From NCBI GenBank assembly GCA_937899645.1, contig CALCCD010000045.1, positions 1 through 47,773 of the forward strand: a stretch of DNA of 47,773 nucleotides, read 5' to 3'. Source of the DNA: an uncultured cyanobacterium. Its GTDB lineage: Bacteria; Cyanobacteriota; Cyanobacteriia; Cyanobacteriales; Geitlerinemataceae. This document shows positions 29,328 through 33,701 of this stretch, piece after piece. The notes below the pieces were generated by a model, which worked only from the letters and a program-made list of their open reading frames with translations, did no database searches and was not told the origin of the DNA. The translations under genes and the position numbers were made by a program. Every line of letters begins with the position of its first letter. Position 1 is the first letter of the stretch.

Positions 29328-32300
29328 TTAGCTCGAACCTTCGGTGTTGCGATCGATGCGGTCGGCGATCGCCTGGGCGACACGGACGCAGTTGCGCCCG
29401 TCGTCCTTGGCGCGGTAGAGCGCGTCGTCGGCAACCCGCATCAAGGCACGGCGATCGGAGCCGCATTCCGGGAACGAAGCCACACCGAACGAAGCCGTAA
29501 CGGAATCGAGCGAGTTTCCGGCGTGGGATAGCTCTAGGTCGGCAATGCGCTGGCGGATCTGTTCGGCACGCTGGTAAACCGCATTGGCGGGCGCATCCGG
29601 CACGATCGCGATCAGTTCCTCTCCGCCGTATCGACAGGCGATGTCGGACTGGCGCAGAACGGAGGAGACGGCTTGGGCGACTTCTCGGAGCACCAGGTCG
29701 CCGACAACGTGGCCGTAGTGATCGTTGTAGCTCTTGAATCGATCGATGTCGATCATCACCAAACCGAGGTGCTTTTGGTGCAGGTGTGCCGCGTGCAGCA
29801 GTCGATCGAGAGCGTCTTCCATGTAGCGGCGGTTGAACAGCCCGGTGAGCGGGTCGCGCGTACTCTGTTGCTCGAGGCTTTCGCGGAGCTGGAGGTTGGC
29901 GATTGACAGCGCGAGCTGCTCCGAGACGGCCCCGGCAAGCTGGCGCTGAGCTTCCTGGAGCGCTCTGGGCTCCGAAGACCACACGTGTAGCAGCCCGAGG
30001 CTGGTTCCCTGGGCGCTCAGCGGCAGGCACAGTGAAACCTCAACACAGTCGCAGGCGTGGATGTGTTTGCAGAACAGTTCGTTGTCGCCGCGCTCCATCA
30101 GGTGGGTTCGGCTGCGCCGCAGCGCCCAACAGTCCTGCTTGAGTCCGCCGATCTCGTTGATGTTAGGCTCGCCCCAGGTGGCGATCTGGACGAGGCGATC
30201 GGAGTCTTGGATTTGGTAAAGCGTCCCGGCACAACCCGGCAAGAGCGACATCATTCTCGCTGCAACGGTTTCGTAGGCTTCGCGGACGGTCTCGCAGGCT
30301 TGCAGGTACTCGTTGAGCTCCCCGAGCTTGAGCATGTCGCGGTTGCGCGAGTTGAGCACGCGGATTTTCGTTTCCAGTTCTTGGTTCGTTTGCTGGAGGA
30401 CGTTTTCGATCGACTTGGTTTTCGTGATGTCACGCAGCGTCACCGTCAGCCCGTCGCCCAGCTCGATCGCCGTGATCTGGAACCAGTGGCCGCGTCGGTC
30501 TTCAGCGGCGCGGTAGATCTCGCGTTCGAGCATGCCGCCGCCCTCCACGACGCGCACGTAGTCGTCGAACAGCTCGGCGACATGGGCTTCGGAACATTCT
30601 TTCCGAAAGAATTTGCCGACGAGGTTTCGATCGGAGGAGGTCACGAACCAGCTTGCGGCGGGGTTGGCAACGATCCACTGGAAATCGACGATCGCCTGCG
30701 TGTTCGGATCGTGAATGCAGCGGAAGGCCATGATGCCATCAATCGAGCTTTCAAGGACGCTGGCCAGCAGCATCTTCGACTCTTCGAGTTCGAGCTGCAT
30801 CGACGAGCGCTCGGTGACGTCCTGAACGATCGCCACAAAGCCCAGCGGATGTGCCCCCTCTTTAAAAATCGGCTCGATTTCGAGGCCGACACGCAGCTCT
30901 TTGCCATCACAGCGCCGGAGCGTCCACTCGCGCGCTTCCAGAGCGGCTTCGTGGGCCGAGCAGAGGGTCAAGCACTCGAAGTTCGCCGGTCGCTCCTGGA
31001 TGGGCGCGTCCGGGAACATATCGGCGTAGTGCTGCTCGATTTCGGACGAAAAGAAGAAGCGCTCGAAATTTAAATCCTGAAGGTCGTCCGGGCCGAAGCA
31101 GGCCAGCAGCGTGCGCGCTCCGGCGTTGGCGAGCTGGATTTGTCCGTCGGGGGCAGTGGAGATAATCGCCACGTCGCAGGTAGAGTCGAAGACCGCCTGG
31201 AGCTTGGCGTTGAGCGTCGTCAGCTGCATCTCGCTTTCATAGCTGGAGGTGACGTCGTTGACGATGCCGATGTAGTTAGTGACACTGCCGCTGTCATCGC
31301 GTACCGGCGAGAGGGTCAGCTCGTTCCAGAACATCGTGCCGTCGCGCCGGTAGTTGCGCAGCGTTACGCAGCAGCCCGTGCCTTCGCGGACAGAGCGGCG
31401 CAGGACTTTGAGGCCGAGTTGGTCGTCGTCGTCGTTCTGCAAAAAGCGGCAGTTGCGCCCGATCGCTTCGTACTCCGAGTAGCCCGTAATCGTCTCGAAC
31501 CCGGAGTTGACATAGACGATCGGGTTGTGAGATTGGGTGGCGTCGGAAACGATCACGCCGTTAGCGCAGGCGTCGATCGCCCGCTCGAGCATTCGCTGCC
31601 AGTACTGAACGCGGCGCTGCTCGGTAATGTCGTGCATGACGACTGCGAAACCGCAAGGCGCTTCCTGGAAATCGTAGAGCGTCGAGATCCGAATTTCCGT
31701 CCAGATCGAGCGCCCGGAACGGTGCTGGTGGCGGCTCTCTGCGACATGGCGACCGTCGAGGCGAGCGCGCTCTAGCTCGCGGGTGGGCTGGCCCGAGTTC
31801 GCCGTCTCGGGATCGAAAAGCACCGCGTAGGGCCGCCCTAGGACTTCGGCTTCGGTGTAGCCCTGGATGCGCTCGGCTCCGGTGTTCCAACTGGCGATCG
31901 TCCCGTCGAGGGCCAGCTCGAAGATGCCGTAGTCGCTGACGCCGTCGAGCAGTAGGCTCCAGCGGGTTTCGGTTTCGACGCGGGCGGCCTCGGAATTTTC
32001 TAGGGCGGTGATGTCTTGGGCGACCCAGGTGATGCAGTCCGGTTCGGCGTTGGGCGAGAGGCGCACGCGAAACCAGCGCTGCTGGCCGTCTACCTCGAGT
32101 GGATACTTAAGGCTCTGGGCGCATTTGGTCTCCAGGACGCGCGCGATCGCCGAGCCGATCGCCGAAGCCGAATCGAGGTCGTAGAACAGCCCTGCGGTGC
32201 GATCGAAAACGTCGGTGGTGGGGCCATAGAGCAAATGCGGATTGGTGGGCGCGATGCTAATCACCTCGTAGTCCGCGCGGATCGTCATCACGATCTCGGT

Positions 32301-33683
32301 CATGGCTTCAAAGAAGGCGCGCACGCTGACCTCGGAAGTGCGGGCGTTTTCCATCAGGAGCTGATTTTCCCGCAAGGCGGTTTCGAGCTGCTGGTTAGCT
32401 GCTTCGAGGTCGTGGGTGCGCTGCTCGACGCGGGACTCGAGCTGCTCGTTGAGGCTGCGGATCTGCTGTTCGGCGCGCCAGCGTTCTTGTAGCTCGGCCT
32501 CGAGGCGATCGAAGGTTTGGAAATGGTCGAGTTCGAGGCCGATGCGAATCGCCAGCCGCTTGGCGAGCAAGACGCTCGTGGCGTAGCTGGCCTGGGTGTC
32601 GCGGCGGGTGCTCTCGCAGTCGTTGATGACGATCGTGCCCCAGCGGGCGTCGGCGACGAGAACATCGACGGTCAAGACCGTTTGTGCGTCGATTTGTTGC
32701 AAAAACTGGCGATCGCGCGCCGAAAGCACCTCGGCCTTAACGCTGGTTTCGATCCCCGCGCAGGCCAAGAGCTGTCCGCTGGGGGCGGGCCGCCGCCATG
32801 CCGCATCGGCAAAATCGTCGGCCTCGAAAACATCGCGATCGAGCCGCCAGCGCTCGTCTGCCACCGCCTGAGCCAGAATCTGCTCGCCCTCTGAGCGATC
32901 GTTTTGTCCGTGGCCGTCCTGACTGCCGCCCTGTCGATCGTAGATATCTCGCCCGTAGACGAAGACCCGATCGCAATCCAACAGTTCGCGCAGTCCGTCG
33001 GCGGCAATTTGTAGGGCGGCTTCGATACCGGGCGAGCTGCTCAAGCTGGCTTCGATATCAGAAAAGAGCCGCTCGAGGACTTGCTGCCGTTGGACTTCGA
33101 GGCGGTAAGCCTGCGTATCGATCTCTCGTTCGCTTTCGGTATTGTTGGCGTGTTTCGTGCTGCTGGCGTTGCGGCTGCGCTGGAGCCGATCGCGCAAGGC
33201 CGGAAGCGACCAGCGATCGAGCGATTGCCAGCAGTCGGGGCCGATCGTGCCGCAGGGTTGGTTATCGCCATCGAGCAAAATAATGTAGTGCGCGTCGCGG
33301 GCGAGAGAGGTGCGCGCCGCGAAGGAAGGATAGGCGACGGGGTCGATCTTGCGGTGGGCGAGCAGGTCTTCCCAACTAGAGATCGCATTCTGAGGGACGG
33401 CCAGCGCCGGAATCAGCGGCAAGGTCGCGATCGTCTCGGAGGTCGTGCGAGGCGAAAAGTCGGCGTTGCAGAGCGCTCGCAGCAGATCGCACTCGGTCGC
33501 CACGCCCCAAAAGCTGTCCGGGCCGGTGCCGACTTCGCTACAGGCAATGCCGATCGTTGCTTCAGACTGCTGGAACTGCCGCAGAGCCTCCGTAACGCTG
33601 AGATCGCCTGAGAGCAGACAGTATTGACGATCGATCGCGGCGGTTAGGAATTGGTTATCGAGCGAGGTCGGGTGACGCGGCAT
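29328..33683 (-). CDS. Multi-sensor diguanylate cyclase (CBS-like, GAF, five PAS with one LOV-like, GAF, GGDEF)
   Basis: This 1451-residue protein should make cyclic di-GMP. From the N terminus come a CBS-like region (about 10-160), a GAF domain (about 200-385), a coiled coil, five PAS domains, a second GAF (about 1130-1260) and the GGDEF domain. The active site reads RYGGEEL, with the inhibitory RxxD site (RQSD) five residues before GGEEL. The third PAS has the LOV signature GRNCRFLQ with C745 and the flavin-contact motifs NYRRDG and FWNEL. The LOV glutamine in the last strand is replaced by Val 808 (YIGIVNDVT). No membrane helix is seen, so it is probably cytoplasmic. The ATG at 33683 is chosen over the TTG at 33701. 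Confidence 0.85.
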   Translation of the reverse strand: MPRHPTSLDNQFLTAAIDRQYCLLSGDLSVTEALRQFQQSEATIGIACSEVGTGPDSFWGVATECDLLRALCNADFSPRTTSETIATLPLIPALAVPQNAISSWEDLLAHRKIDPVAYPSFAARTSLARDAHYIILLDGDNQPCGTIGPDCWQSLDRWSLPALRDRLQRSRNASSTKHANNTESEREIDTQAYRLEVQRQQVLERLFSDIEASLSSSPGIEAALQIAADGLRELLDCDRVFVYGRDIYDRQGGSQDGHGQNDRSEGEQILAQAVADERWRLDRDVFEADDFADAAWRRPAPSGQLLACAGIETSVKAEVLSARDRQFLQQIDAQTVLTVDVLVADARWGTIVINDCESTRRDTQASYATSVLLAKRLAIRIGLELDHFQTFDRLEAELQERWRAEQQIRSLNEQLESRVEQRTHDLEAANQQLETALRENQLLMENARTSEVSVRAFFEAMTEIVMTIRADYEVISIAPTNPHLLYGPTTDVFDRTAGLFYDLDSASAIGSAIARVLETKCAQSLKYPLEVDGQQRWFRVRLSPNAEPDCITWVAQDITALENSEAARVETETRWSLLLDGVSDYGIFELALDGTIASWNTGAERIQGYTEAEVLGRPYAVLFDPETANSGQPTRELERARLDGRHVAESRHQHRSGRSIWTEIRISTLYDFQEAPCGFAVVMHDITEQRRVQYWQRMLERAIDACANGVIVSDATQSHNPIVYVNSGFETITGYSEYEAIGRNCRFLQNDDDDQLGLKVLRRSVREGTGCCVTLRNYRRDGTMFWNELTLSPVRDDSGSVTNYIGIVNDVTSSYESEMQLTTLNAKLQAVFDSTCDVAIISTAPDGQIQLANAGARTLLACFGPDDLQDLNFERFFFSSEIEQHYADMFPDAPIQERPANFECLTLCSAHEAALEAREWTLRRCDGKELRVGLEIEPIFKEGAHPLGFVAIVQDVTERSSMQLELEESKMLLASVLESSIDGIMAFRCIHDPNTQAIVDFQWIVANPAASWFVTSSDRNLVGKFFRKECSEAHVAELFDDYVRVVEGGGMLEREIYRAAEDRRGHWFQITAIELGDGLTVTLRDITKTKSIENVLQQTNQELETKIRVLNSRNRDMLKLGELNEYLQACETVREAYETVAARMMSLLPGCAGTLYQIQDSDRLVQIATWGEPNINEIGGLKQDCWALRRSRTHLMERGDNELFCKHIHACDCVEVSLCLPLSAQGTSLGLLHVWSSEPRALQEAQRQLAGAVSEQLALSIANLQLRESLEQQSTRDPLTGLFNRRYMEDALDRLLHAAHLHQKHLGLVMIDIDRFKSYNDHYGHVVGDLVLREVAQAVSSVLRQSDIACRYGGEELIAIVPDAPANAVYQRAEQIRQRIADLELSHAGNSLDSVTASFGVASFPECGSDRRALMRVADDALYRAKDDGRNCVRVAQAIADRIDRNTEGSS

Positions 33684-33701
33684 GGTGTTCGATCGTGACA
33701 A

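Follow-up and report, generated by a model that had tools for sequence, protein, structure and literature searches.

A LOV domain with valine at the active-site glutamine position in a cyanobacterial multi-sensor GGDEF protein

Results

A multi-sensor protein with a C-terminal GGDEF domain

The DNA analysed here, which we call the window, is a stretch of 47,773 nucleotides from an uncultured cyanobacterium; the split rpoC genes and rpoB identified within it by Pfam are in keeping with this origin. Its minus strand carries a long open reading frame (ORF) with PAS, GAF and GGDEF domains (Pfam). Residues are numbered from the TTG start unless stated otherwise.

29328..33701, minus strand: whole protein, several sensor domains followed by a C-terminal GGDEF domain; 1457 aa when counted from TTG and 1451 aa from an in-frame ATG at residue 7
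32487..33119, minus strand: first GAF domain (PF01590, E 2.6e-05; region scanned); nearest PDB chain 6oap_A
31932..32339, minus strand: first PAS domain (PAS_4, E 1.1e-06; region scanned)
31587..31949, minus strand: second PAS domain (PAS_9, E 2.5e-14; region scanned), without LOV motif
31221..31595, minus strand: LOV domain, the third PAS-type domain; residues 703-827
31449..31451, minus strand: codon of the Cys at the photoactive position; residue 751 (745 from the ATG), start of predicted helix E-alpha
31260..31262, minus strand: GTC codon, Val at the active-site Gln position; residue 814 (808 from the ATG), in the predicted last strand
30822..31229, minus strand: fourth PAS-type domain (PAS_9, E 9.1e-08; region scanned)
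30447..30839, minus strand: probable fifth PAS-type domain (PAS_4, E 2.3e-4, below the Pfam cut-off; region scanned)
29901..30284, minus strand: second GAF domain (Pfam); residues 1140-1267
29391..29858, minus strand: GGDEF domain; residues 1281-1437, motif GGEEL, with RQSD five residues upstream

Scanned piecewise with Pfam, the protein shows the order GAF, PAS, PAS, LOV, two PAS-type regions, second GAF and GGDEF, with no match in the N-terminal 190 of its 1457 residues and no EAL domain found along the chain. An earlier note on this DNA had described a LOV-like third PAS domain within a giant diguanylate cyclase. Two PAS domains do come before the LOV domain, and the name given to the whole protein is fair, since its C-terminal domain matches PF00990 at 166.2 bits (cut-off 23.8; E 6.7e-49). 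The motif GGEEL conforms to GG(D/E)E, with Leu for Phe as in both orthologs described below; we take it to be the GGDEF active-site motif, and RQSD to be the RxxD of the I-site.

The first GAF domain was examined as a possible bilin photosensor. It matches 6oap_A, a cyanobacteriochrome, at E 3.5e-07; the usual bilin Cys seems to be missing, judging from an alignment read by eye. This GAF domain is apparently absent from one of the orthologs (L034).

The third PAS-type domain matches LOV domains and has valine in place of glutamine

The four motifs on which the earlier note had drawn (GRNCRFLQ, RNYRRDG, FWNEL and YIGIVNDVT) are all present in the translated ORF, and its C745 and V808, correct when counted from the ATG, are the Cys751 and Val814 of our numbering. 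The interval it gave, 31240-31500, contains both codons; the domain itself is wider, at about 31221-31595. According to Dietler et al. 2022 (PMC9098866), a LOV domain is recognized by nine residues (G, N, C, R, F, L, Q, N, N), and a minimum of eight must be present. The window's domain keeps all nine, and the active-site position in the last strand, where Gln is expected, is Val814 (GTC). This combination of at least eight residues with no active-site Gln places it among the Gln-less LOV receptors, a subgroup whose members that paper still calls LOV receptors (PMC9098866).

A phmmer search of PDB sequences with the domain returned 165 hits with E no higher than 0.001, led by a short LOV protein (3.3e-33). 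In five of these alignments, gap-free over the domain, the Cys falls under the LOV Cys, so that its assignment to the photoactive position stands, and the Val falls under the LOV Gln, where the PDB chains read FIGVQKDV, YIGIQRDV, FIGMQVEV and alike. The second PAS domain, searched as a control, gave 7 hits, none better than 6.2e-07; 9vf7 and 9vf8, both entries for LOV histidine kinases, are among the weaker hits.

Profile searches agreed, as models of both a YtvA-family photoreceptor and a LOV histidine kinase matched the domain. The former (NCBIfam NF052652) matched residues 704-835 at 165.3 bits (E 1.7e-48) over model positions 1-132 of 243 only, without reaching its whole-protein cut-off of 250 bits; the latter scored 130.1 bits (8.1e-38) against a whole-protein cut-off of 450. 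Scores below cut-off are expected, because LOV is here one domain of a different protein.

The earlier note had also proposed a structure prediction. AlphaFold2, run on 25 aligned sequences and without flavin, predicts a LOV fold (mean pLDDT 93.0, pTM 0.82) in which a short helix begins at the Cys and the Val lies within the last strand. The 50 PDB matches listed by Foldseek for this model are all LOV or blue-light photoreceptor entries, led by 7a6p (3.2e-15). The best matches in sequence and fold are the short Pseudomonas LOV proteins PpSB2-LOV (7a6p) and PF5-LOV (7r5n), which are stand-alone and carry the Gln (FIGVQKDV and YIGIQRDV, respectively), whereas the window's domain is embedded in a larger protein and carries Val. 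The window has Ile at the position that corresponds to YtvA Val28 when residues are counted from the Cys. The nine-residue test, PDB alignment, predicted fold and codon position thus all agree with the earlier claim of a LOV domain without its Gln, and the view that the third PAS-type domain is a LOV domain with Gln replaced by Val is well supported.

The glutamine is kept in same-genus orthologs and most cyanobacterial relatives

Two same-genus genomes (G001 and G002) hold the same domain at 66-67% identity with the Gln kept, in an Oscillatoriales MAG (L034) and a Coleofasciculaceae MAG (L033). The codon at this position is CAA in both, vs. GTC in the window. At all three loci the gene converges on hisD (identified by Pfam in the window and by eye elsewhere), and we therefore consider the genes orthologs. 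With Gln present in both orthologs, its loss to Val is derived in the window's lineage. The L034 ortholog is a single ORF of 1262 aa; in L033 (3927-8297) the gene extends over three overlapping ORFs of a low-coverage MAG contig and is frameshifted or mis-assembled. We rejected the idea that the Val was acquired by swapping in a LOV domain from elsewhere, because no sequence is closer to the domain than the orthologs (66-67% identity); the next best have 53-55% in one search and 54% in another.

Gln occupies the position in 51 of 57 non-redundant relatives (obtained by clustering, at 80%, the 109 sequences that match with E no higher than 1e-20), with Leu in five and Ala in one, in a set drawn partly with peptide patterns that include the window's NYIGIVND and which may thus lean towards Gln-less cases. 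Among relatives from the genus, family and order with at least eight of the nine residues (n=75; 89 of 123 non-window matches examined, the 34 weakest, below 89 bits, being left out), 72 have Gln and one each Glu, Leu and His. A phylum sample (40 matches in 146 genomes, window included) added 20 further cyanobacterial loci, all with at least eight residues: 19 with Gln and one with Ile. Altogether, Gln is found in 91 and Val in none of the 95 cyanobacterial relatives with at least eight residues; this retention of the Gln indicates that it is normally under selection.

Several relatives depart from the LOV pattern in other ways. L192 (match 1501-1875), from the phylum sample, has Ser for the photoactive Cys and Ile for the Gln, with the other eight residues kept. 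This is a natural double loss and may belong to the redox class that Dietler et al. discuss. Further Gln-less LOV domains occur in L036, L037, L050, L071 and L077 (Leu) and L043 (Ala); a string search found a GGDEF-like motif in the ORFs of L036, L037 and L077 and not in those of L043, L050 and L071. Conversely, order-level LOV-like domains (L130, L143, L157, L165, L169, L171 and others) have lost the Cys and kept the Gln, so that the two residues are lost independently.

When the window's own genome was searched with the LOV domain, the one strong match was the domain itself; the next two reached 1.4e-4, for the protein's own second PAS domain, and 9.3e-4. In each of the same-genus genomes a second domain matches LOV (L152 and L154), and Gln is present in both. 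No BLUF domain was matched in the window's genome, in a search whose control was positive in 1 of 14 genomes. Six EAL domains score above cut-off in the genome, making c-di-GMP turnover likely.

The LOV domain is well conserved apart from the glutamine

The window differs from the 57 relatives in six columns that are at least 75% conserved. Five of these changes (L704M, I718V, I729V, A770S and K786R) are conservative; Q814V alone is radical. The LOV domain is 67.2 and 66.4% identical to those of the two orthologs; GGDEF reaches about 70%, and the remaining four PAS domains lie at 47.1-57.5%. The dN values against L034 follow a similar order (0.215 for GGDEF, 0.234 for LOV, 0.333-0.452 across the remaining four PAS domains, 0.474 for the second GAF domain); synonymous sites are near saturation in this comparison, so that they give no reliable ratio to dN. 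The LOV domain is the best conserved sensor domain of the protein, behind GGDEF only, and thus gives no sign of decay.

We also compared derived changes in the LOV domain, using seven cyanobacterial outgroups with each of the two orthologs. The window carries 10-18 changes vs. 6-11 in the orthologs and is the higher in all 14 comparisons, which share much of their data; such an excess would fit a mild relaxation on the window branch. For GGDEF, the balance leans the opposite way with many outgroups. The contrast between the two domains gave Fisher p<0.05 in 2 of 34 comparisons (17 outgroups, two orthologs), both with outgroup L035, and the sequences thus offer no clear indication of a LOV-specific relaxation. 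Decay of the domain was rejected as an explanation, being not clearly apparent from conserved columns, identity, dN or relative rates.

Discussion

Our preferred explanation is an FMN-type LOV photosensor that has lost its Gln to Val in this cyanobacterial lineage and that probably still works. By analogy, we think it likely that the domain provides a blue-light input to c-di-GMP synthesis, which is the likeliest reading because the tested M. loti LOV-GGDEF fragment also lacks the Gln. Blue light would create a bond between Cys751 and a bound flavin, presumably FMN, with protonation of flavin N5. With Val at position 814, the signal would have to reach the beta-sheet by another route, perhaps the water proposed by Dietler et al. 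It may then travel through the C-terminal DVT/helix and a PAS-PAS-GAF relay to the GGDEF dimer, whose response would raise or lower c-di-GMP synthesis. Such a domain might be expected, by analogy, to absorb a few nm to the blue and to return slowly to the dark state.

The earlier note correctly stated that certain LOV proteins function in the absence of the Gln. Such receptors are better documented than it implied, about 350 natural Gln-less examples being reported by Dietler et al. (PMC9098866). The active-site Gln is described there as generally dispensable, with water proposed to stand in for it. In YF1, most of 19 Gln replacements keep the light response; those named as abolishing it are P, H, W, Y and R, with N named as attenuated, the tolerance of Val following by exclusion only, as Val is not named in the paper's sections on replacements (PMC9098866). 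Several replaced variants have a weaker output. Removal of the Gln causes a blue shift in absorption of about 8 nm, recovery is about ten times slower in Q123L of YF1, and V28I in YtvA also slows recovery (PMC9098866). A blue shift accompanies Val at the Gln position in iLOV, an engineered fluorescent protein (PMC8131319).

The closest functional parallel is the M. loti LOV-GGDEF-EAL protein WP_140774521.1 (PMC9098866), which likewise keeps the LOV residues, lacks the Gln and has a GGDEF output. Its LOV-GGDEF fragment, with Met at the Gln position, behaves in E. coli as a blue-light-repressed cyclase (145 Miller units in the dark vs. 30 in blue light). The present protein differs in being cyanobacterial, in having Val rather than Met and no EAL domain by Pfam, and in having same-genus orthologs that still carry the Gln. 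Moreover, LOV is fused directly to GGDEF in M. loti, whereas about 450 residues (two PAS domains and one GAF) lie between them here. MsLadC, a LOV-activated diguanylate cyclase (PMC10396304; PDB 8c05), also combines LOV and GGDEF domains; as described in PMC10396304 and PMC12805367, it couples them by a direct coiled coil in a 321-residue chain and is a partial guide only. MsLadC matches both the LOV part (E 2.4e-29) and the GGDEF part (E 6.6e-28) of the present protein.

Loss of the Gln uncouples or weakens signalling in some LOV proteins, and the main rival to our explanation starts from this fact. The domain would bind flavin and fail to relay light, acting as a light-blind or redox-reading sensor, an alternative that the earlier note had also named, or running a photocycle without output. 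The weaker output of several Gln variants (PMC9098866) and the slightly raised number of changes on the LOV branch of the window would fit such a sensor. We nevertheless consider it unlikely: a redox sensor has no need of the photoactive Cys, which is kept along with the other eight residues, and the published Gln-less variants are mostly light-responsive (PMC9098866). More improbable still is a domain that no longer binds flavin and is now no more than a structural PAS relay within the long row of sensors. Four other PAS-type domains surround it, none with the LOV motif, as this idea would have it; however, all of the flavin-pocket residues tested are kept, and the LOV domain is more conserved than these neighbours. 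A sequencing or assembly error is hardly credible, as all three bases of the codon differ from those of the orthologs (GTC vs. CAA) and the frame is open, with no stops, even though the species is represented by a single genome with no second copy to compare.

The sequence is new and the kind is not: Gln-less LOV receptors, including a light-responsive LOV-GGDEF protein, are already on record (PMC9098866), and the domain alone therefore changes little. Its special use lies in a matched set of natural orthologs from one genus, next to the same neighbour gene, one with Val and two with Gln. These would allow the effect of Gln loss on recovery, colour and output to be followed in a naturally evolved protein rather than in an engineered mutant. 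We suggest, tentatively and as an unlikely extension, that the change from Gln to Val, made in the genome's only LOV domain with the remainder of the pocket kept, was recent and adaptive, yielding a slow-recovering, slightly blue-shifted LOV domain that sums the blue-light dose over long periods and sets c-di-GMP accordingly. If so, this protein would stand in contrast to its Gln-bearing sister proteins of the same genus.
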